DNA of 45,310 bases from Stenotrophomonas raiganjensis (SeqCode). Lineage in GTDB: Bacteria; Pseudomonadota; Gammaproteobacteria; Xanthomonadales; Xanthomonadaceae. Numbering within the stretch: the stretch's first letter is position 1; each line of letters opens with the position of its first letter. This document shows positions 8,671 through 45,310 of this stretch, piece by piece. The stretch spans positions 1 to 45,310 of the forward strand of contig NZ_JAUTXR010000132.1 of the NCBI RefSeq assembly GCF_030658505.1, given 5' to 3'. The translations under genes were made by a program, and so were the position numbers. The notes beneath the pieces are model-generated. The model saw only the letters and a program-made list of their open reading frames with translations. It ran no database searches and was not told the DNA's origin.

Positions 8671-8679
8671 ATCCTGCCT

Positions 8680-8738
8680 GTAGAGCCGAGCCTACGCTCG
8701 GCTGCTGTGGCATCAGCCGAGCGTAGGCTCGGCTCTAC
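8680..8738. repeat. Pair of inverted SMAG palindromes
   Basis: Two GTAG-initiated units, GTAGAGCCGAGCCTACGCTC.. (from 8680) and its reverse complement ending in CTAC (8738), face each other. The two form a 25-bp perfect inverted repeat (8680-8704 with 8714-8738) around a 9-nt loop, and each unit is itself a small hairpin. This matches the published SMAG (Stenotrophomonas maltophilia GTAG) family of REP-like elements. It sits between the lipoprotein and gpx genes and could act as a terminator or mRNA stabiliser. Confidence 0.85.
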
Positions 8739-8796
8739 AACTGCGCGCACAGCGCTATGCTGGTGGGCCATTCCCCGCTGTTGCCGGAGCCCCCGC

Positions 8797-9357: not shown

Positions 9358-9402
9358 GGTGGGGTCGGATCCCTTTCCGCGGGAAAGGGCTCCGACCCCA
9401 CC
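9358..9402. repeat. Long palindrome, GGGGTCGGATCCCTTTCC family
   Basis: A 21-bp arm (9358-9378) pairs with 9382-9402 across a GCG loop with a single T/G non-Watson-Crick position. It is closely similar to the palindrome at 23408-23446, including that same asymmetric position, and shares its inner part with 5953-5991. It directly follows gpx, just before an intrinsic terminator. Confidence 0.7.
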
Positions 9403-20777: not shown

Positions 20778-22654
20778 GCTTGCTCCACGAGTTGTATCGC
20801 AACGGCCAGCTGCGAACTCTCGATCACGCACTGGCGACCAGCCTGCAACGCTTGCGGGAGGACACCCCTGACAGCGTGGCAGTGGCGGCCGCACTGGCCT
20901 CGCTGGCGGTGTCGCAGGGCCACGCTGCGTTTGATCCGGCACAGCCGCAGCGGTTGCTGGAAGGCGTGCCTGAGTGGCCTGCCGCGCAGAACTGGCTGGC
21001 ACAGTTGCGTGCATCGCCGTGGGTAGCGACGCCGGACCAGGCCGACGCCATCGCCGAGGATGCACCGCTGGTACTGGAAAACGGGCTGCTGTACCTGCGC
21101 CGCTATCGTGAGTACGAGCGTCAGCTGGCGGCCGGGCTGCAGCGCATTGGTCGGCATCCGCTGCCGGCACCGGACATGGCCGCGCTGGCACCGCTGTTCG
21201 CGCAGCTGTTCCCGCAGGCATCGGGCAGCGAGGACCACCAGGCACGCGCCGCCGGCGTGACCCTGCGCCATCCGTTGGCACTGGTCACCGGCGGCCCCGG
21301 CACCGGCAAGACCACCACCATCGCGCGCCTGTTGCTGCTGTTGGCGGCACAGGCCCGGCAGGCCGGCCAGCCGCTGCCCGAGGTGGCCTTGGCCGCACCC
21401 ACCGGGCGCGCCGCCGAACGCATGGCCGAGAGCCTGCGGCTGGCCGTGCAGCGCCTGCAGGAGAACGGCGTGGACCCGGCGCTGTGCGCGGCACTGCCCA
21501 GTACCGGCACCACCCTGCATCGCCTGCTCGGCGTGATTCCGGATTCGCCGCGCTTCCGCCACCACGGCGACAATCCGCTGGCGGTGGACGTGGTGGTGGT
21601 CGACGAAGCCTCGATGATCGATCTGCCGATGATGGCCAAGCTGGTCGATGCGATTGCCAGCGGCACCCGCCTGATCCTGCTCGGCGATCCCGATCAGTTG
21701 CCGTCGGTCGAAGCCGGTGATGTGCTCAGCGCGATCCTGCGCGCCAGCGGCGATGGCATCGGCACCCGCGCCGACGATGCGCAGGCGCTGCATGGCCTGC
21801 TGGCGCCGGCCACGTTGCAGCCACAGGCCACGCCGCGCGCCTTCGCCGGCCGCCGCGTGCAGCTGCAACGTGGTTACCGGCAGAGTGATGCGCTGGACCT
21901 GGCGCCGCTGGCGCATGCCGTGCGCGAAGGCGACAGTAGCACGGCACTGCAGCTGCTGCGCGGTGGGTCGCTTGCTGGCGTGCACTTCCACGAAGGCGAA
22001 GCCGATCCGTTGCGTGGCCAGCGCGAGCACCTGCTCGGCCACTGGCGTGCATTGGCCGATGCCACCGATCCGGTGCTTGCCCTGCAGCAGGCCGGTCGCC
22101 TGCGCGTGCTGACCGCGCTGCGCGAAGGCCCACAGGGCGCGCGTGGCCTCAACAGCCGCATCGAACAACTGCTGGCCGGCACTACCCCGGGCTACTTCCA
22201 GGGCCGCCTGCTGCTGGTCACCGAGAACAGCTACCGGCACCGCCTGTTCAACGGCGACATCGGCATCTGCCTGCGCGATGGCAGCGGCGCGATGGTGGCC
22301 TGGTTCCCCGGCGACACCCTTGAACAACCACGTGCCTTCCACCCGGCCGCGCTGCCCGCGCACGAAAGCGCCTTCGCGATGACCGTGCACAAGGCGCAGG
22401 GCTCGGAGTTCGATGAAGTGTGGCTGCAGCTGCCACGCCAGGACAGCCGCGTGCTGTCGCGCGAACTGGTCTACACCGGCCTGACCCGCGCCCGCCAGGT
22501 GCTGCATGTGGCCGGCAGCGCGGACGTGCTGCAGGCTGCATTGAAACGCCACGCCAGCCGGTTGGGTGGCCTGGCCTGGCGGCTGGGTGCGGAAGACGTG
22601 ATCGAATTACCGACGCGCAGTGAACAGCCTACGGTGCAGGGCGCGTTGTTTTGA
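20774..22654 (+). CDS. recD: RecD subunit of exodeoxyribonuclease V (5'-3' helicase)
   Basis: A 626-residue superfamily 1B helicase that moves along the 5'-ended strand. The N-terminal RecD domain (about residues 1-150) contacts RecC. Motif I is GGPGTGKTTTIARLLL (about residues 173-188), Ia APTGRAAERMAE, II VVVVDEASMIDLPMM, III LILLGDPDQLPSVEAGDVL, and V/VI HKAQGSEFDEVWLQLP (about 539) with ELVYTGLTRARQ. Length and order are as expected for gamma-proteobacterial RecD. It is the last gene of recCBD. The 332 bp up to the next gene hold SMAG palindromes and the twin-hairpin element at 22808. Confidence 0.96.
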   Translation: MSLLHELYRNGQLRTLDHALATSLQRLREDTPDSVAVAAALASLAVSQGHAAFDPAQPQRLLEGVPEWPAAQNWLAQLRASPWVATPDQADAIAEDAPLVLENGLLYLRRYREYERQLAAGLQRIGRHPLPAPDMAALAPLFAQLFPQASGSEDHQARAAGVTLRHPLALVTGGPGTGKTTTIARLLLLLAAQARQAGQPLPEVALAAPTGRAAERMAESLRLAVQRLQENGVDPALCAALPSTGTTLHRLLGVIPDSPRFRHHGDNPLAVDVVVVDEASMIDLPMMAKLVDAIASGTRLILLGDPDQLPSVEAGDVLSAILRASGDGIGTRADDAQALHGLLAPATLQPQATPRAFAGRRVQLQRGYRQSDALDLAPLAHAVREGDSSTALQLLRGGSLAGVHFHEGEADPLRGQREHLLGHWRALADATDPVLALQQAGRLRVLTALREGPQGARGLNSRIEQLLAGTTPGYFQGRLLLVTENSYRHRLFNGDIGICLRDGSGAMVAWFPGDTLEQPRAFHPAALPAHESAFAMTVHKAQGSEFDEVWLQLPRQDSRVLSRELVYTGLTRARQVLHVAGSADVLQAALKRHASRLGGLAWRLGAEDVIELPTRSEQPTVQGALF

Positions 22655-22675
22655 CGCGGGCGCGATGCGCTTCCT

Positions 22676-22733
22676 GTAGAGCCGAGCCATGCTCGGCTGA
22701 TGGGCTACGGAGTCGAGCGTGGCTCGACTCTAC
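22676..22733. repeat. Pair of SMAG palindromes behind recD
   Basis: GTAGAGCCGAGCCATGCTCG.. (22676-22699) is one hairpin unit; AGTCGAGCGTGGCTCGACTC followed by TAC (22711-22733) is a second unit in the opposite direction. Unlike the pair at 8680 the two units are diverged from each other, so each keeps its own hairpin. They lie 22 bp behind the recD stop. Confidence 0.8.
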
Positions 22734-22760
22734 AGAAGCGTACTTCGATCATTTCCACGC

Positions 22761-22785
22761 TCATCCACGCATGGCGTGGATCTAC
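22761..22785 (-). repeat. Single SMAG palindrome
   Basis: Read on the minus strand this is GTAGATCCACGCCATGCGTG followed by GATGA: a GTAG head and a stem ATCCACGC/GCGTGGAT around a short loop. It belongs to the same family as 8680 and 22676, with a different stem sequence. Confidence 0.75.
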
Positions 22786-22807
22786 CGGCCACCGGAAAAC
22801 TGTCGAA

Positions 22808-22909
22808 GGCGGGGTGGGTCCGGTTGCGGGGGCGTGAGCCGCATGGATGCGGCGACCGAGCTTACAAGGATGTACTTGCAGCGTCCCCCGCAACCGGACC
22901 CACCCCGCC
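22808..22909 (+). repeat. Twin-GGA-hairpin element, copy A (candidate RsmA/CsrA-binding RNA)
   Basis: A perfect 25-bp inverted repeat (22808-22832 with 22885-22909) encloses a 52-nt core. Inside the core, GCCGCATGGATGCGGC and TACAAGGATGTA form two hairpins whose loops read CATGGATG and CAAGGATG, both exact matches to CANGGANG. The second hairpin also matches the CsrA selection consensus RUACARGGAUGU at 11 of 12 positions. The GGA triplets are 23 nt apart. The orientation is the same as recD, so the element would lie in the 3' part of a recCBD transcript. The structure and motif are seen directly; RsmA binding is inference. Confidence 0.6.
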
Positions 22910-22961
22910 AACCCACGGATAGCACGCATTTGACGTTGCCGTTGCCGTTGATTCGGCAGGT

Positions 22962-22978
22962 GCAGGGCGCAGCCCTGC
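22962..22978. terminator. Short GC hairpin before the small conserved gene's end
   Basis: GCAGGGC (22962-22968), loop GCA, GCCCTGC (22972-22978). It is 8 bp past the stop of the minus-strand gene at 22987 and lies between converging genes. There is no T run, so it is a weak terminator candidate at best. Confidence 0.35.
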
Positions 22979-22986
22979 CGCCCCCG

Positions 22987-23385
22987 TCATTCCGCGATCA
23001 GCACCAGGCCATCGGGAAACACGATCGCCGCTTCATCGGCGCTCACATCGAAGAAGCCTACGCCGTGCTTCTCGGCCAGGTCCTGCACGCGGGTATGCGC
23101 ACGTTCGGCCACCGAATACGCAAACGCGCCGTAGATCACCTGGCGGCCGATGCTGTACTCGGTCACCTCGGCGCGGTCTTCATCGTCGTTGCTCAGTGGT
23201 CCGTTCATCGGCGGGAATTCCTGCGCCATCTCCGCAAACCACGCCTGCAGCGCCGGGCTGCTGACCGCCGCGTCGTCGTACTCGTGGCGCTCGTTCCACT
23301 GCGTCTGCTCCTCGAACCAGGCGATGAAGGCCGCGGCCTCACGTGGAGCGGCGCTGGCCTCGAACACCATCATGTCGTAACTCAT
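22987..23385 (-). CDS. Small conserved cytoplasmic protein, function unknown
   Basis: A 132-residue acidic protein without signal peptide or membrane segment. It begins MSYDMMVFEASAAPREAAAF; the middle has FIAWFEEQTQWNERHEYDD and PPMNGPLSND, and the C-terminal half has EYSIGRQVIYGAFAYSVAER and KHGVGFFDVSADEAAIVFPD. The last stretch looks like two beta strands around a GxGFFDVS turn. I have the impression of a family seen in many proteobacteria, sometimes near toxin-immunity genes, but cannot name it. The frame continues upstream to 23466 through the palindrome at 23408, so ATG 23385 is the better start. It lies alone between repeats. Confidence 0.72.
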   Translation of the reverse strand: MSYDMMVFEASAAPREAAAFIAWFEEQTQWNERHEYDDAAVSSPALQAWFAEMAQEFPPMNGPLSNDDEDRAEVTEYSIGRQVIYGAFAYSVAERAHTRVQDLAEKHGVGFFDVSADEAAIVFPDGLVLIAE

Positions 23386-23407
23386 TGAACCGTCCTGTTG
23401 CAGCGCC

Positions 23408-23446
23408 GGGGTCGGATCCCGCTCCGCAGGAGAGGGCTCTGACCCC
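23408..23446. repeat. Long palindrome, GGGGTCGGATCCC family (second copy)
   Basis: GGGGTCGGATCCCGCTCC (23408-23425), loop GCA, then GGAGAGGGCTCTGACCCC (23429-23446). There are three non-Watson-Crick positions in 18. The GGATCCC/GGGCTC asymmetry is identical to the copy at 9358. It lies just upstream of the small conserved gene and behind the aaeB-like gene. Confidence 0.65.
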
Positions 23447-23479
23447 TCCGCGGAGTCTGTGGACACACAGGGTAGCGCG

Positions 23480-25519
23480 CTACGGCTGCGTCGCCGTGTC
23501 CATTGCCAGTCCCGGCGCCAATGCCTTCGCCTCCGGGAACAGCGCGAAGCGCAGGCCGATCAGGCCCATCAGCGCCTCGTCGCGGGCCTTGCACGCCGCC
23601 ACGCTGCCAACGCGGCCCAGCGAGGTATCCAGCCGCTCGCGCAGCGCCTCGGCCGCCATGATCGGCTTGCGTGCGGCGATCTGCCGCCGATAGTGCCCAG
23701 CGATCTCCTCCAGGATGTGCTCGACCGCCTCGCGGCTGCGCTCGGGCAGCTCCAGCCGTGCACGGCGCAGCTGCAGGATGTTCAATCCGATGCGTGCCTC
23801 GTTGAGCATGTCCACCGAGGCGATGTCGCTGCCCTCCGGCGTCGCCGCCAGGCGCGGCGCGAGCAGGCCCAGCAGGTCGAGCATGCGTGCGGCGAAGCGC
23901 TGCCGGTCCTGCTGGCCACGGCCTTCGGCGGCTTCGGCCAGCGTGGTCCAGCCCTGCCGCACCAGCCGGCGCGCGGTCCACTCGGCACCCACCGAACGGA
24001 ACAGGCGGGTCATCACCACCGCAAAGCCGATGCCGATGAACATCGCGATCGACGAGTTGAGGAAGGTCTGGATGTTGGCGCTGTAAGTGTTCTGCAGGCT
24101 CAGCAGCGCGGCCAGGTTCACCGTCAGCGGCAGTGCGAACAGAGCGCTCTTGGGGTGGTGCAGCATCAGCCCCAGCGGCAGGAACACCACCGCCAGCACC
24201 AGCGCCAGCAGGCCGAAGTCGTGGACCGCCGGGAACACGCCGAACAGATACACGCCGGCGACCACCGAGGCGACCATCGCCCATACCAGGAATGACACCA
24301 TGCTCGGCGCCGGATCGTCCTGCGCGGCGAAGAACGCGGCGGTGACTGCGGCCATCATCGCGCCGTTGCCGCCGCCTTCCCATCCCAGCGCGATCCACAG
24401 CACGCAGTAGCTCATCAGCGCCACGCCGGCGCTGAGCGCGGAGAACAGCGCCATGCCGTAGTCGACGTGCTTGTCAGCGGCCACGCGTTCAGTGCGGATG
24501 CGGTAGTGCGCGCGGTCCAGCGGCGCGGTGCCGTGGTCGATCGCGTGCTGCAGGGTGCGGCAGTCCTGCCACAGGTCTACCAGTTCCTCCAGGCGCAGCA
24601 GCAGGCTGGCCAGCTGCAGGTGCTGCAGGTCGCGGTCCACCTGCGGCTTCAGTGCACTGATGCGCGCGCGCAGGCGGGCGTACTCGCTGGCATTGGTTGG
24701 GCCGTCCAGCCAGTCGTGGATGTCGTCGATCAGCGCCGGCAGGCCCTCCGGCAGGTCCTGCCCATCGCTGCGCAGCGCACTCAGGCGGTCGGCGATCGAG
24801 GACAGCACCGGCAACAGCAGCAGCATGCGCTCGCGCAGCCGCTCCATCGACACCGACGACCCGGCGTGGCGTGGATCATCGCGGCGCAGGAACTCGATCA
24901 GCGCCTCGAACTGCACCAGGTCGGCGGCCAGCCGGTTGCGCGGCGCATGTGCACGGCCGCGTTCAAGAATCTGCCGGCACCACTGCGCGGCGTCCTCCAT
25001 CCAGCTGCCGATGCGTGCGCGCAGCATCGGTCGAACCGAGGCCGGGAACAGCAGCGAGGCGAACAGCACCGCCACCACCGTGCCAAGGATGATCTCCTCG
25101 CTGCGCGCCACCACGGTGTCGAAGATGGTTTCCGGCGAGGTCACTGCGGGGAAGCCGATGAAGGCGGTGGTGTAGCCGGCCAGCAGGAACGCGTAGCCGC
25201 GCGGGCCGCGGTTGAGCAGCGCCATGAACAGGCAGCCGGCCAGCCAGATCGACATCGCCGCGCTCAGCACCAGCGGCGTTTCCACCAGTGCCGGCAGCAC
25301 CAGCAGGGTGGCCAGCCCGGCCACCAGCGTGCCGACGATGCGGTATACGCCCTTGGCACGGGTCGGGCCCAGCAGCGGCTGGCTGACGATGTACACCGTG
25401 CCCATCGCCCAGTACGGGCGCGACAGGTTGCCGGCCATGGCGATGTACAGCGCGGCCACTGCGGCCAGGTAGGTCTTGATCGAGAACAGCCACGCCTGGC
25501 GGTCGGTCAGCGCGTTCAT
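23480..25519 (-). CDS. FUSC/AaeB-type inner-membrane efflux protein
   Basis: A 679-residue inner-membrane component of a tripartite exporter, FUSC family (aromatic carboxylate and fusaric acid exporters such as AaeB). The first membrane block (about residues 10-170) contains KTYLAAVAALYIAMAGNLSR, PYWAMGTVYIVSQPLLGPTR and GYTTAFIGFPAV. A soluble helical region (about 180-340) precedes a second block of membrane helices from about 360 to 500 (VDYGMALFSALSAGVALMSY..), then a cytoplasmic C-terminal domain. Two halves with the PYWA(M/L)xTV motif are typical of the family. It is the last gene of the marR-led operon, 3 bp after the outer-membrane factor gene. The likely substrate class is hydroxylated aromatic acids; this is family inference. 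Confidence 0.9.
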   Translation of the reverse strand: MNALTDRQAWLFSIKTYLAAVAALYIAMAGNLSRPYWAMGTVYIVSQPLLGPTRAKGVYRIVGTLVAGLATLLVLPALVETPLVLSAAMSIWLAGCLFMALLNRGPRGYAFLLAGYTTAFIGFPAVTSPETIFDTVVARSEEIILGTVVAVLFASLLFPASVRPMLRARIGSWMEDAAQWCRQILERGRAHAPRNRLAADLVQFEALIEFLRRDDPRHAGSSVSMERLRERMLLLLPVLSSIADRLSALRSDGQDLPEGLPALIDDIHDWLDGPTNASEYARLRARISALKPQVDRDLQHLQLASLLLRLEELVDLWQDCRTLQHAIDHGTAPLDRAHYRIRTERVAADKHVDYGMALFSALSAGVALMSYCVLWIALGWEGGGNGAMMAAVTAAFFAAQDDPAPSMVSFLVWAMVASVVAGVYLFGVFPAVHDFGLLALVLAVVFLPLGLMLHHPKSALFALPLTVNLAALLSLQNTYSANIQTFLNSSIAMFIGIGFAVVMTRLFRSVGAEWTARRLVRQGWTTLAEAAEGRGQQDRQRFAARMLDLLGLLAPRLAATPEGSDIASVDMLNEARIGLNILQLRRARLELPERSREAVEHILEEIAGHYRRQIAARKPIMAAEALRERLDTSLGRVGSVAACKARDEALMGLIGLRFALFPEAKALAPGLAMDTATQP

Positions 25520-25522
25520 GGC

Positions 25523-26992
25523 TTACTTCGCCGAGGCCTGTGCGGTGGACGGCGCCGCCGGGGCGACCGTTGCCTGCCAGCCGCCACCCAGCACCAGGAA
25601 CAGATGGATCTGGTCGCGCGAGACCTGCGCTTCGGCAGCGGCCAGGGTGGCATCGCTGGTGGCCAGGCTGCGGTCGGCATCCAGGCTGGACAGGTACGGC
25701 GTGCGGCCGCCCTGGTACAGCCGGCGGTTCTGCTCGGCGGCCAGCGCGGCCTGCTCCTGCGCGATGCGCAGCGACTGCAGCCGGCGCAGGTCCTGCGCAT
25801 AGCGGTCCAGCGCGGTCTGGGTCTCGCGCAGCGCCTGCAGCACGGTGTGGTCGAACTCGGCCAGCGCCGCGTCGGCACCGGCCTCGGCAGCGTGGATGCG
25901 CGCATGCGTGCCCGACGACGGCAGCGTCCACGAAATCAGCGGGCCGATCGACCACTGCTGGGTCATCGGTGTGCCGAAGTCTTCCAGCAGGCCGGCGGCG
26001 CCCACCGAGGCGCCCAGGCGGATGTCCGGATACAGCTCGGCGGTGGCCACGCCAATCCGAGCGGTGGCCGAGGCCAGCTTGCGTTCGGCCTGGCGCACGT
26101 CCGGGCGGCGCTGCAGCAGCGCCCGGCCATCACCGACCGGCAGCGGCTGCGCCAGGCCGGGGGCGTGCGCACAGTCGATCACGCCGGCTGGCAGCTGGCC
26201 CGGGGTTTTCCCAAGCAGCGCGGCCAGCGAATAGGCGGCCGCCGAACGCTGCGCGCGTAGCGGCGGCAGTGCCGCCTCCAGCAACGCTACCTGCGCATTG
26301 GCGCGGGCCAGTTCCGGCGGCGTGCCGCGGCCGGCCGCGATCAGGCGCTTGGTGACCGTGCGGCTGCGCTGCTGCAGCTGCAGCGAATGCTCGGCCACGT
26401 GCAGTTCGTGGTTGGCGTGGCAGATTTCCAGGTAGCTGTCGGCGACCTGCGCGACCACGCTGACCTGGGCCAGATCGCGCGCCCCGGCGACCGATTGCTC
26501 GTCGGCACGCGCCGCTTCGGCGCCGCGCTTGAGCTTGCCGAACAGGTCGAACTGGTAGCTGACCGCGAACTTGCCATCGGCCAGGTTGATCACCGGCAGT
26601 TCGTGTTCCTGCAGGAACGATTCGGCCGACAGCTGCGCACGGCTGACGCCGGCCTCGGCCTCGTACTCGAAGCCGCCCGCGTCCAGCGCCTGTTCGTACA
26701 CGGCGGCAGCGCGGCGCAGGTGCGCATCGGCGGCCTTCAGTTCCACATTGTCACGCAGCGCCTGGGTGATCAGGCCATCCAGCACCGGGTCGTTGTACAG
26801 CGACCACCAGCGGTCGGGCAGCGCCTGGTTGGCGGCCACCTGCGGGTTCTGCGTATCGATGAAGGCCGCATTGGCCTCCGGGCGCTTGAACGCCGAGCCT
26901 TCCGGCAGTGCGTAGTCGGGGCCGACGGTCCTGCACGCAGCCAGGCTGGCCAGCGCGACGATCAGGCCGAGACGGGGCAGGGCGGTGTTCAC
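25523..26992 (-). CDS. Outer-membrane efflux factor (TolC-like, NodT/OprM family lipoprotein)
   Basis: A 489-residue outer-membrane channel of the RND/NodT type. The lipoprotein signal MNTALPRLGLIVALASLAAC gives Cys20, followed by RTVGPDYALPE, the standard opening of OprM-like proteins. Two OEP repeats follow (about residues 60-245 and 270-460), rich in helical Ala/Gln/Arg heptads such as ELKAADAHLRRAAAVYEQAL and LLQRRPDVRQAERKLASATA. The C-terminal tail is Ala/Pro rich. Its start overlaps the aaeA-like stop by 4 bp. The pump operon thus carries its own outer-membrane channel, unlike E. coli aaeXAB, which relies on TolC encoded elsewhere. Confidence 0.93.
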   Translation of the reverse strand: MNTALPRLGLIVALASLAACRTVGPDYALPEGSAFKRPEANAAFIDTQNPQVAANQALPDRWWSLYNDPVLDGLITQALRDNVELKAADAHLRRAAAVYEQALDAGGFEYEAEAGVSRAQLSAESFLQEHELPVINLADGKFAVSYQFDLFGKLKRGAEAARADEQSVAGARDLAQVSVVAQVADSYLEICHANHELHVAEHSLQLQQRSRTVTKRLIAAGRGTPPELARANAQVALLEAALPPLRAQRSAAAYSLAALLGKTPGQLPAGVIDCAHAPGLAQPLPVGDGRALLQRRPDVRQAERKLASATARIGVATAELYPDIRLGASVGAAGLLEDFGTPMTQQWSIGPLISWTLPSSGTHARIHAAEAGADAALAEFDHTVLQALRETQTALDRYAQDLRRLQSLRIAQEQAALAAEQNRRLYQGGRTPYLSSLDADRSLATSDATLAAAEAQVSRDQIHLFLVLGGGWQATVAPAAPSTAQASAK

Positions 26993-27906
26993 AGGCCCGC
27001 CTGTGTCGGCGCAGTGCCGGCCTTGCCTGCGTGCTTCGTGCTGCTGGTCTGCACGGTCACCGTGGCGGTACGGCCGGCAATCAGCTCAACGCCCTTGGGT
27101 ACTTCGTCGATCGCGATGCGCACCGGGATGCGCTGCGCCAGCCGCACCCAGTCGAAGGCCGGGGTCACGTTCGGCAGCAGGGTGCTGCCGTTGCTGCGGT
27201 AGCGGTCCTCGATGCCGGCGGCGATGCTTTCCACGTGGCCACGCAGCGCGGTCGATTCACCCATCAGCCGGATGTCCACGCTCTGCCCCGGGGCCACGCC
27301 ACGCAGGCGGGTTTCCTCGAAATAGCCATCGATGCGGAACGAGCCGGTATCCAGCAGCGCCAGCACCGGCTTGCCAGACACCACGTAGTCGCCCACGCGC
27401 ATGGTGCGGTCGTTGACGCGGCCGTCGGCCGGTGCACGCACCTCGGTGCGGCCGAGATTGAGCTCGGCCAGATCGACCGCCGCTTGCGCGGTGGCCAATG
27501 CGGCCTGTGCGGCCTGCAGCTTGGCACGGCGCACTTCGGCGTCTTCGGCGGCGACCAGGTCCTGCAAGCTGCGGTCCCGGCCGATCTCGCGGCGCAGCTG
27601 GGCGACCGAGGCCTGGCGCTCGGCAAGGCTGGCCTTGGCCTGTTCCAGCGCGATGCGGTAGCGGGCGCGGTCGACCACGAACAGCAGGTCGCCCTTCTTC
27701 ACCGCCTGGTTGTCGGCCACGTTTACCGTTTCCACCAGCCCGGACACGTCCGGCGCCACCTGCACCACGTCGGCACCGACGTGGGCGTCGCGGGTCCAGG
27801 GTTCATCCATGTAGTAGACCCACAGCTGGCGCAGCACCAGCAGGGCGAGGATCACGGCTGCGCTGGTGAGCAGCACCGGCAGGGTCTTCTTCACGATCTT
27901 GTTCAC
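26989..27906 (-). CDS. AaeA-like periplasmic adaptor (HlyD/membrane fusion protein)
   Basis: A 305-residue membrane fusion protein that links the FUSC pump to the outer-membrane factor. One N-terminal membrane helix (LPVLLTSAAVILALLVLRQL) is followed by DEPWTRDAHVGADVVQVAPD, the first lipoyl half. A helical hairpin of about 90 residues and the second lipoyl half (VRAPADGRVNDRTMRVGDYV) come next, then GYFEETRLRGVAPGQSVDIR, the typical beta-barrel motif. The GTG start at 27906 overlaps the stop of the DUF1656 gene as GTGA, and puts the membrane helix at the usual distance. An open extension to 27987 would overlap that gene in full and is unlikely. Confidence 0.92.
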   Translation of the reverse strand: MNKIVKKTLPVLLTSAAVILALLVLRQLWVYYMDEPWTRDAHVGADVVQVAPDVSGLVETVNVADNQAVKKGDLLFVVDRARYRIALEQAKASLAERQASVAQLRREIGRDRSLQDLVAAEDAEVRRAKLQAAQAALATAQAAVDLAELNLGRTEVRAPADGRVNDRTMRVGDYVVSGKPVLALLDTGSFRIDGYFEETRLRGVAPGQSVDIRLMGESTALRGHVESIAAGIEDRYRSNGSTLLPNVTPAFDWVRLAQRIPVRIAIDEVPKGVELIAGRTATVTVQTSSTKHAGKAGTAPTQAGL

Positions 27907-28112
27907 GATTGCATCCAACGCAGGAGGTGGAACAGCAGGCCAAGCACGATCCCGTACAGCGCCAGGTTGAACAGCGCCGGGTGCCATACATGGCGGTAGG
28001 CGCCGGCACGCTGCAGCAGCGCGTGCAGGCCGCTGTTGACCAGATAGGCCAACACCATCAACCCGAGCAGGGTCGGGACGAACACTCCGTGGAGACTGAA
28101 TTCACCGGGCAT
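27903..28112 (-). CDS. AaeX-like DUF1656 small membrane protein
   Basis: A 69-residue inner-membrane protein with two hydrophobic helices (VFVPTLLGLMVLAYLVNSGL and LFNLALYGIVLGLLFHLL). DUF1656 proteins of this size accompany aaeA/aaeB pairs in many proteobacteria; their role in efflux is not established. The start MPGEFSLHGVFVP at 28112 matches the family; an extension to 28166 adds a proline run from the spacer. It is coupled to the adaptor gene by a GTGA overlap and lies 109 bp downstream of the MarR gene on the same strand. Confidence 0.88.
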   Translation of the reverse strand: MPGEFSLHGVFVPTLLGLMVLAYLVNSGLHALLQRAGAYRHVWHPALFNLALYGIVLGLLFHLLRWMQS

Positions 28113-28221
28113 CGGTAGGGGGCGGGGACGAGGTGGGGGAGGGGAGGGACAACGAAACAACAGCAACGGGCAAAAGCCGCTGGCGTGTGCACGGCAGCGG
28201 CGGTGTTCGGCGGCAGCGCTC

Positions 28222-28677
28222 TTACGTGATGCGGTCGGCGGCCTCGGCCAGCAGGCGCCATGCCTTCAGCACGGCGTGCAGTTCATCCATGGAAAGCTCG
28301 CCGAACACGTCCTGGCGCAGGCCGATCAACTGGTCTTCCAGCTCGCTGACCAGCGCCTGGCCGGCGTCGGTCAGCCACAGCAGGTTGGCGCGGCGGTCGC
28401 TGGCGTCGCTTTCGCGGCGGACCAGGTCACTGGCGCACAGCTTGTCCAGCAAGCGCACCAGGGAAGGACCTTCCATGCCCAGCTGCTGGGCCAGCGCCAC
28501 CTGGCGGATGCCACCGCCGGAGCGGCCGATCATCAGCAGGGGCATGGTGCAGGCGGTGGAGATGCCGTAGCTGCCGAGCCGGCTGTCGGCCAGGCGCTGC
28601 CACTGCCGCCCTGCGTACAGCAGGCCGGAGCTGAGCTGCATCTGCAGCACGGTGCGCTCGTCGAGGGGTCGGTCCAT
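28222..28677 (-). CDS. MarR-family transcriptional regulator of the efflux operon
   Basis: A 151-residue winged-helix dimer protein, normal size for MarR. The helix-turn-helix lies in IRQVALAQQLGMEGPSLVRL, and the wing in VRRESDASDRRANLLWLTDA, with the conserved DxRRxxLxLT pattern. The C-terminal dimerisation helix is LHAVLKAWRLLAEAADRI. MarR proteins usually repress their own gene and a linked pump until an aromatic ligand binds, which fits the aaeX-aaeA-OMF-aaeB genes behind it. ATG 28677 lies just downstream of a -35/-10 pair (28689-28716) and has no Shine-Dalgarno, so the message may be nearly leaderless. The ATG at 28716 would lie inside the promoter. Confidence 0.88.
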   Translation of the reverse strand: MDRPLDERTVLQMQLSSGLLYAGRQWQRLADSRLGSYGISTACTMPLLMIGRSGGGIRQVALAQQLGMEGPSLVRLLDKLCASDLVRRESDASDRRANLLWLTDAGQALVSELEDQLIGLRQDVFGELSMDELHAVLKAWRLLAEAADRIT

Positions 28678-28685
28678 AAGAGATA

Positions 28686-28716
28686 GATAGGATACTACTA
28701 ATTTCATTCCTATCAA
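28686..28716 (-). promoter_or_regulatory. marR promoter with overlapping inverted-repeat operator
   Basis: On the minus strand TTGATA (28716-28711) and TATCCT (28694-28689) are 16 bp apart, a good sigma-70 promoter in an otherwise GC-rich spacer. The inverted repeat GATAGGA (28686-28692) and TCCTATC (28708-28714) covers both boxes, so a bound MarR dimer would block RNA polymerase. This is the expected layout for MarR autorepression. The assignment to this MarR protein is inference from position. Confidence 0.6.
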
Positions 28717-28782
28717 TGGGTTTTTCTGAATGGGTGGGTGTGTTGAGGAAGGCGTTGCGCCTGCTGGCTATCGGTTGGGGCG

Positions 28783-28880
28783 GCGGGGGCCGGACGGGGC
28801 AGGACACGCCGCAAGTACGTCCCTGTAGGCTCGGCCGCGGCATCCATGCCGCGGACGGTCCTGCCCCGCCCGGCCCCCGC
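28783..28880 (-). repeat. Twin-GGA-hairpin element, copy B (candidate RsmA/CsrA-binding RNA)
   Basis: A 23-bp inverted repeat with one mismatch (28783-28805 with 28858-28880) encloses 52 nt. Read on the minus strand the core has GCGGCATGGATGCCGC and TACAGGGACGTA, with loops CATGGATG and CAGGGACG, both CANGGANG. Relative to copy A the first stem carries a C-G to G-C exchange that keeps pairing. It is oriented like marR but lies upstream of the marR promoter, so it would need its own start site to be transcribed. Confidence 0.58.
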
Positions 28881-28939
28881 TGCCTTCCCATCACCCCGCG
28901 AGCGCGGTGGGTTGGCTCTTGGAAGCAAGAGCAGAAGCA

Positions 28940-28960
28940 GTGCGGACCAACGGTCCGCAC
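28940..28960. repeat. Perfect 9-bp hairpin between copies B and C
   Basis: GTGCGGACC (28940-28948), loop AAC, GGTCCGCAC (28952-28960). It may be a SMAG-related unit without a clear GTAG head. It sits roughly midway between the two divergent twin-hairpin elements. No promoter is obvious on either side in this 595-bp spacer except that of marR. Confidence 0.5.
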
Positions 28961-29057
28961 CCACCAAAGCAGCAACCTGCGCAGTCTCCGGAGCCATGAA
29001 CCCAGCTTTTGACCCCGCTTTCGGGCGGTCCCGCCGCGCCCGCAGGAAACTGTCAGG

Positions 29058-29160
29058 GATGGGGAAGGGCGGCAGGGCAGGACCGTGAGGCGCATGGATG
29101 CGCCGACCGAGCCCCCATGGATGGGTTTACGGCGTGTCCTGCCCTGCCGCCATCCCCATC
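29058..29160 (+). repeat. Twin-GGA-hairpin element, copy C, upstream of folE
   Basis: Arms 29058-29083 and 29136-29160 pair along about 24 bp with one bulge and one mismatch; the enclosed core is again 52 nt. Hairpins GGCGCATGGATGCGCC and CCCATGGATGGG both show CATGGATG loops. Compared with copies A and B, stem pairs changed in step (C-G to G-C in hairpin 1; T-A to C-G and A-T to C-G in hairpin 2). It has the same strand as folE, ending 112 bp before its start, so it may lie in the folE leader. Confidence 0.6.
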
Positions 29161-29272
29161 CAAGCCGATACCAAACAAGGCGCCGCCCGCCCCACCGATG
29201 AACCGCCCCAACAGGACGACCCACCCCCCGGTCGGGTACGATGCTCGCCCCCCGTTCGGGACGCTGTACGCA

Positions 29273-32154
<2,882 letters not shown>

Positions 32155-45048: not shown

Positions 45049-45138
45049 TCGCCCCCTTGCTGCAGCGCATCGCTTCTTCGGAAACGGCACGCGAACAGCG
45101 ACGCCACCACCGCCGAACGAGATGATCGAACGAAGGTG

Positions 45139-45166
45139 TTGACGGACTCGAAAAGTCCGGCATAAT
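45139..45166 (+). promoter_or_regulatory. Tandem stable-RNA-type promoter P2
   Basis: TTGACG (45139-45144), 16 bp, CATAAT (45161-45166). The spacer contains GGACT-CGAA-AAGTCC, a small dyad. The -10 box is followed by GTCGGCTCGC, a GC-rich discriminator typical of stringently controlled promoters. It is closely similar to P3 over about 50 bp. Confidence 0.7.
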
Positions 45167-45260
45167 AGTCGGCTCGCAACGACGAAAGGCCCTCGGGTCC
45201 AACGACGAAGCGGCATCGGCAACAACGTCCACTCCGGTGAGGCGGCCTTGAAAAAAGGTG

Positions 45261-45288
45261 TTGACGAAGCGGAAAAGCCGGCTATAAT
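45261..45288 (+). promoter_or_regulatory. Tandem stable-RNA-type promoter P3
   Basis: TTGACG (45261-45266), 16 bp, consensus TATAAT (45283-45288), then GGGCGGCTCGC. An A run (45251-45256) precedes the -35 box. P2 and P3 share GGTGTTGACG at the -35 and ATAAT.G.CGGCTCGC around the -10. Such near-consensus tandem promoters with GC-rich discriminators usually drive rRNA or tRNA operons; the gene itself begins beyond the window, so rrn identity is inference. Confidence 0.78.
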
Positions 45289-45310
45289 GGGCGGCTCGCT
45301 ACGAAGGAAA

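Follow-up and report, generated by a model that had tools for sequence, protein, structure and literature searches.

A dispersed, often paired gammaproteobacterial repeat with a conserved three-way-junction RNA fold and two GGA loops, a candidate RsmA/CsrA decoy

Comparison of copies within and between genomes revealed a repeat family, represented three times in the window (the whole stretch of 45,310 nt that was analyzed, from Stenotrophomonas raiganjensis), and its shared structure, the strand carrying it, the constancy of two GGA triplets, the outward pairing of copies and presence or absence at one locus were all evident from the aligned sequences. On balance, the element is probably a mobile or locally amplified chromosomal repeat that would be transcribed into a three-way-junction RNA, be bound by an RsmA/CsrA dimer and serve as a dispersed RsmA decoy. 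The features in the window are:

22808..22909, + strand: copy A, whole element; arms 22808-22832 and 22885-22909, core 22833-22884, 25 of 25 arm positions complementary
22833..22858, + strand: copy A, hairpin 1 (pairs of core 1-26), loop ATGGAT at 22843-22848
22860..22882, + strand: copy A, hairpin 2 with a 5-nt bulge (pairs of core 28-50), loop AAGGAT at 22866-22871
28783..28880, - strand: copy B, whole element, left member of an outward pair; core 28806-28857, loops 28842-28847 and 28819-28824
29058..29160, + strand: copy C, whole element, right member of the outward pair; core 29084-29135, loops 29094-29099 and 29117-29122
28881..29057, no strand: spacer between outward-facing copies B and C; such spacers differ from site to site, often with other repeats
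22794..22804, + strand: 5' flank of copy A, GGAAAA-CTGTC, a motif that precedes most copies of the own genome and likewise lies at 29045-29054 before copy C

The first-pass annotation had placed three copies in the window, each with a core of exactly 52 nt between complementary arms, and the coordinates, core length and arm pairing were all reproduced. All six loops read CANGGANG, the GGA triplets were 23 nt apart in copies A, B and C, and the reported stem swaps were real (core 7-20 in copy C, 8-19 in copy B, 31-42 and 32-41 in copy C). The two hairpins were present as described; the extents given to them were too short, since hairpin 1 covers core 1-26 and hairpin 2 runs from 28 to 50, including a bulge at 43-47. 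A covariance-model search of the own genome assigned copies B and C to one outward-facing pair and copy A to a single site.

Other repeats were seen in the same window. GTAG palindromes at 8679-8739 and 22675-22790, several of which adjoin copy A, are presumably SMAG-like (GTAG) REPs, as named in PMC3733652. A second dispersed palindrome, GGGGTCGGATCC...GACCCC, was found at 9361-9402 and 23408-23449, with relatives in a number of outward-pair spacers. At the window end, the stretches 45128-45187 and 45250-45309 were 75% alike and carried TTGAC...TAATA/TATAAT-like boxes, perhaps promoters.

BLAST with 66 nt of copy A returned at least 40 matches in the own genome, copy A included (40 of 85 candidates scored). 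A covariance model (R1), built from 34 of 38 aligned copies after four mosaic or indel copies were dropped, returned at least 142 matches at E ≤0.01 (150 of 5796 candidates scored). With these numbers the three copies are not a chance resemblance, and the dispersed repeat family proposed for them was borne out. The 142 matches were grouped into 103 sites (80 were fetched), 39 with two copies and 64 with one. Copies were in minus-plus (outward) order at 39 of 39 two-copy sites, and the gap between model matches was 146-314 nt at 38 of these and 897 nt at one. The 897-nt pair (L156, G000:C167:14873-15929) encloses a complete gene that, by reading, resembles KDPG aldolase (eda). GGAAA-CTGTC upstream and a conserved stretch downstream were shared by most own copies; spacers were variable and carried other repeats. 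Of 30 loci of the genus compared at folE, 5 had both copies recognized, the window locus among them, 7 had a single copy and 18 had neither; the stretch between aligned flanks measured 121 to 752 nt where both flanks were found.

The core was resolved as a three-way junction of hairpin 1 (1-26), A27 and hairpin 2 (28-50, bulge 43-47). Copies for the 165 clusters (<85% identity) used for mutual information, and for the alignment of the model R2, were picked by requiring GGA twice and at least 8 of 14 Watson-Crick arm pairs; arm pairing was thus partly built into the rule, and outer arm positions 15-23 and the hairpin stems lay outside it. The top eight APC-corrected mutual-information pairs all fell within the fold (8-19, 5-22, 4-23, 30-48, 1-26, 32-41, 9-18 and 31-42). 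The ninth joined 43 with 46 inside the bulge (UA in 133 and CG in 25 of the 165), suggestive of a small contact within it; this UA/CG exchange, seen across genera over two intervening bases, presumably resembles a CUUG-type turn. In hairpin 1, pairs 1-26, 2-25, 4-23 and 5-22 covaried and 3/24 was a mismatch. R2 comprised 75 of 81 representatives (one coding-sequence false hit was removed, five others were absent). Across 75 diverse copies, 95.7% of cells were paired, double-change cells numbered 685 vs. 209 (sd 11) when shuffled, and the structure score was 0.791 vs. 0.115-0.137 when slid. The hairpin stems, on which the picking of copies placed no condition, were paired in 94.7-99.6% of cells. 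Covariation of the stems across genera with fixed GGA loops had been expected at the outset, and this was the pattern that the covariance-model check returned. Core 4-5 with 22-23 formed tandem G.A/A.G pairs in 37-38 of 99 own copies and Watson-Crick pairs in 56 of the 99. In R1 the base of hairpin 2 had been drawn as core 25-28 paired with 43-46, which the wider covariation superseded. Thermodynamic folds left both GGA triplets unpaired in only 65 of 165 clusters (the first loop in 149, the second in 69).

Strand was assessed from wobble pairs in the arms of the 165 clusters, where G.U exceeded A.C overall (131 vs. 48, binomial P = 4e-10). As G.U on the GGA strand would be A.C on the opposite one, it is apparently an RNA of the GGA strand that is under selection. 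The excess was 69 vs. 13 in the inner 14 arm pairs, for which the picking rule had counted Watson-Crick pairs only, and was weaker in the outer nine outside the rule (62 vs. 35, P = 0.008). The GGA strand also folded more stably in 130 of 165 clusters; copies A and C of the window folded better on the other strand, by 1.2 kcal/mol (-79.5 vs. -80.7) and 0.5 kcal/mol (-73.5 vs. -74.0), respectively. With stem covariation, GGA constancy and G.U over A.C, the proposal of selection on RNA structure, on the GGA strand, was sustained, and sequence comparison gives good support to both the RNA fold and the strand assigned to it.

GGA constancy is quoted only from sets without a GGA picking rule. Both loops contained GGA, with a spacing of 22-24 nt, at 29 of 29 loci of the class that R1 alone had detected, each of them the top-scoring match in its genome; among 96 full-length own matches, part of which had been used to build R1, GGA was present in loop 1 of 95 and loop 2 of 94. 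Each hairpin ended in an ANGGAN hexaloop closed by C-G with varying N positions, and loop 1 was ATGGAT in 93 of the 96 own matches. Loop letters were counted in 99 own and 177 other copies, for which the picking rule had required GGA twice, minimum arm pairing and stem pairs. The second loop letter was a pyrimidine in loop 2 of 55/99 own copies and, elsewhere, in loop 1 of 97/177 and loop 2 of 60/177. A review gives the CsrA SELEX consensus as RUACARGGAUGU, in which ACA and GGA are invariant. The likeness of hairpin 2 to this consensus held for copies A and B (UACA.GGA) and not for copy C, which reads CCCA. The ACA (core 32 = A) occurred in 161/177 copies of other genomes and in only 46/99 own copies, leaving about half of the latter without it. 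The CsrA/RsmA-type feature, ANGGA in two hairpin loops spaced for one dimer, was found. The loop sequences make RsmA binding likely; for own copies without ACA it is less likely.

Of 68 element-bearing genomes, 63 encoded CsrA, as did the own genome. Its frequency among complete, clean genomes was 57/58 with the element vs. 223/256 without (P = 0.009), and among all genomes 63/68 vs. 250/301 (P = 0.06), CsrA being common in the class. The other five of the 68 gave no CsrA over the cut-off, looser search included; four were <90% complete and one (G196) was 98%. Co-occurrence of CsrA with the element is consistent but weak.

The family had been ascribed to Stenotrophomonas, where it is present; it is not confined to the genus, and other gammaproteobacterial genera carry it. 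With R1, 68 of the 369 genomes sampled from the class (60 of 271 genera) had the element; R2 detected it in 30 of 119 genomes of the Xanthomonadaceae and in 32 of 398 genomes of the phylum, every one of the 32 from the own class, the number of the 398 lying outside the class not being stated. As only 11 to 39 candidates were scored per genome in these wide scans, absence is weak evidence. A pattern scan gave as hosts at least Stenotrophomonas, Xanthomonas, Marinobacter, Ectothiorhodospira, Methylomonas, Nitrococcus and Zobellella. Matches numbered at least 126 in S. maltophilia SJTL3, at least 150 in the chromosome of Xanthomonas sp. LMG 31884, 94 in a Marinobacter MAG and 5 in a Thiogranum MAG. 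Close neighbors were minus-plus in 23 of 23 cases among the 91 matches listed of the 126 in SJTL3; both close neighbors among the 44 listed for LMG 31884 were in tandem, where inverted partial copies also precede several elements. As a crude indication for replication-strand bias, the listed matches by record halves were 24 plus/17 minus then 21 plus/29 minus in SJTL3, and 13 plus/9 minus then 11/11 in LMG 31884. In one genome (G451), the 19 fetched copies shared nearly one core. Another (G663:C1:94430-95646) had six listed copies in tandem, all on one strand, with a period of ~227 bp. Neither 72,556 plasmid nor 50,697 phage records matched a 58-nt consensus query, and viral contigs held no instance of an exact pattern, results that exclude close copies only. 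No publication describing this repeat was found, mostly outside subscription journals, and an exact-string literature search returned unrelated papers only.

CsrB, CsrC, RsmX, RsmY and RsmZ carry repeated GGA hairpin loops able to hold CsrA/RsmA and come from a single gene or a few, each under its own promoter; the element, in contrast, has two sites per unit and very many scattered copies, and is not known to have a promoter. The nearest known family, one to which the first-pass annotation had drawn no link, is TwoAYGGAY of Rfam (RF01731); the element is an abundant, distinct variant of this kind of RNA. PMC2864571 reports TwoAYGGAY from human gut, gammaproteobacteria and Clostridiales, and PMC4333381 proposed it as CsrA-binding and named tandem G.A in a stem. 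Rfam types it Cis-reg and places it in clan CL00106, a clan common to RsmW. Like TwoAYGGAY, the element has an enclosing stem, two adjacent AYGGAY-like hairpin loops, a tandem G.A option and several copies per genome, and four of five close TwoAYGGAY pairs among the matches listed were likewise outward. Unlike TwoAYGGAY, it has a fixed 52-nt core and a 5-nt bulge in hairpin 2; four of ten TwoAYGGAY loci (L408, L411, L412 and L413) read GACACGACGTC in the second hairpin, with no GGA there.

Searched against Rfam at gathering score, the whole window gave no match, TwoAYGGAY included; at E ≤10, positions 22600-29300 gave mostly miRNA-type noise on long stems and no TwoAYGGAY. At gathering score, 19 loci of other genomes gave four matches, none overlapping the element by coordinates. 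RF01731 had one match in the own genome (36.7 bits, below the gathering threshold of 43) and exceeded the cut-off in 15 of 369 genomes of the class, often in several copies. One locus (L414) matched both models, RF01731 at 55 bits (cut-off 43) and R2 at 67.8 bits (E = 2e-14). The element is not a member by the Rfam test; it probably works like TwoAYGGAY and is probably its kin, as judged from these likenesses.

RsmU of Xanthomonas campestris, described in PMC7694677 as an RsmA-binding RNA in the 3'UTR of comEA, comes from this bacterial family too and stands apart from the classical RsmA-binding RNAs, a parallel to the predicted role of the element. That RsmU is a copy of the element was rejected on four Xanthomonas-type genomes: the 260 nt after comEA, taken as the RsmU region on the basis of that description, had other sequence and no R2 match there. 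In one of these (L376), an R2 match lay ~1.3 kb from the comEA region; in a fifth genome this region fell beyond the contig. The element also resembles REP/SMAG (GTAG) and CGTC repeats in being dispersed, palindromic and often paired; these are reported mostly from convergent or co-directional gaps (PMC3733652). REPs are single hairpins of 20-40 bp with a GTAG or CGTC tag, whereas the element is ~100 bp with no GTAG at the ends of aligned copies. CGTC REPs have a CGTC/TGTC tag, an 8-9 bp stem starting AT, a loop of 4-5 and a CCA tail (PMC3733652); element cores often begin CGTC or TGTC, their stems open with bases other than AT, and they fold as a junction of two hairpins. CGTC-1 dimers of H. 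neapolitanus sit in 41-bp palindromes followed by 'attcacg' (PMC3733652) and might be candidate members of the element family.

Gene context was determined with a simple hexamer-score predictor. The 53 fetched own sites with a gene on both sides and no overlap were in 14 convergent, 34 co-directional and 5 divergent gaps, compared with 12, 43 and 29, respectively, among 84 background gaps ≥100 bp; divergent gaps were under-used (5/53 vs. 29/84, P = 0.001), and over-use of convergent gaps was not significant (P = 0.12). The median distance to a facing stop in the own genome was 96 bp. A fixed gene orientation was suggested by five genomes of other genera, in which the 3'-side gene faced the element in 32 of 43 copies, often <90 bp from the stop codon. 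It was rejected, failing in the named-record set (mixed contexts in 78 copies from 66 of 80 loci) and in single own copies, which in co-directional gaps were 13 sense and 11 antisense. A simple consensus scan of one site, 28700-29300, gave no sigma-70 promoter-like or terminator-like site.

The transcript would fold into a three-way junction in which a long closing stem of free sequence encloses hairpins 1 and 2, and one RsmA/CsrA dimer would most likely clamp both loops of a single transcript. With ~140 copies per genome, read-through or local transcripts would then constitute a dispersed decoy that buffers free RsmA. We consider scattered decoy action of this kind the likeliest mechanism; its serious rivals are a selfish repeat and a mobile cis-element. 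Under the selfish-repeat reading, which we regard as unlikely, the element would be REP-like DNA whose palindrome and apical hairpins are recognized as single-stranded DNA by some transposase or replication process, with RNA as a by-product and no part for RsmA. Such a repeat would suit the high copy number, the patchy presence, the near-identical cores of the 19 fetched G451 copies, the tandem array in G663 (six listed copies, period ~227 bp), the variable occupancy of one locus, and the outward order (39/39 own two-copy sites; 23/23 close neighbors among the 91 SJTL3 matches listed). Rarity between divergent genes, as in REPs (PMC3733652), agrees with it as well. Pairing of DNA alone, however, does not predict G.U far above A.C, the loops keep GGA as their N positions drift, and phages, plasmids and viral contigs held no close copy.

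An insertion that brings the flanking mRNA under RsmA control of stability or translation, i.e. a mobile cis-regulatory cassette, seems to us distinctly unlikely. Copies B and C do each face the predicted start of one of two divergent genes, at 103 and 112 bp, and the Cis-reg type of TwoAYGGAY in Rfam agrees with such a role. The near-equal sense and antisense counts of single own copies in co-directional gaps, however, do not favor a fixed UTR role. Among 88 own copies with a 3'-side gene, 53 faced the gene end and 35 its start (median 164 bp to the start), contexts were mixed in the named-record set, and in the original authors' table TwoAYGGAY carries an 'n' (probably not) for cis-regulatory function (PMC2864571). 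The facing genes in 32 of 43 copies from other genera, and the 96-bp own median to a facing stop, would accord with a structure formed from the opposite strand (loops ATCCNT) at mRNA 3' ends, protecting or ending messages. This reading is highly improbable: the strand test was contrary overall and reversed in none of the five genomes (small counts), copies displayed from these genomes had no U-run after them, and the named-record set was without such a preference.

The decoy reading extends to a broader and more tentative one, which we find doubtful as a whole: a mobile RNA module living by CsrA binding, of which >100 two-site decoys per genome would set free RsmA and replace CsrB/RsmZ-type antagonists in lineages like Xanthomonadaceae, with TwoAYGGAY a branch of the same superfamily. 

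Some gammaproteobacteria, including Stenotrophomonas and Xanthomonas, carry a few to >100 scattered copies, which may amount to an uncatalogued reservoir of RsmA/CsrA decoys. If the copies are transcribed and bound, a repeat family missed by Rfam would largely determine how many RsmA sites these cells contain, and modeling of RsmA titration would change for Stenotrophomonas, Xanthomonas, Marinobacter and relatives. The orphan TwoAYGGAY family would also gain a biology, as dispersed, paired and CsrA-facing. A mobile element exploiting a global RNA-binding protein would be directly testable here, because many copies and natural loop variants occur in one genome.
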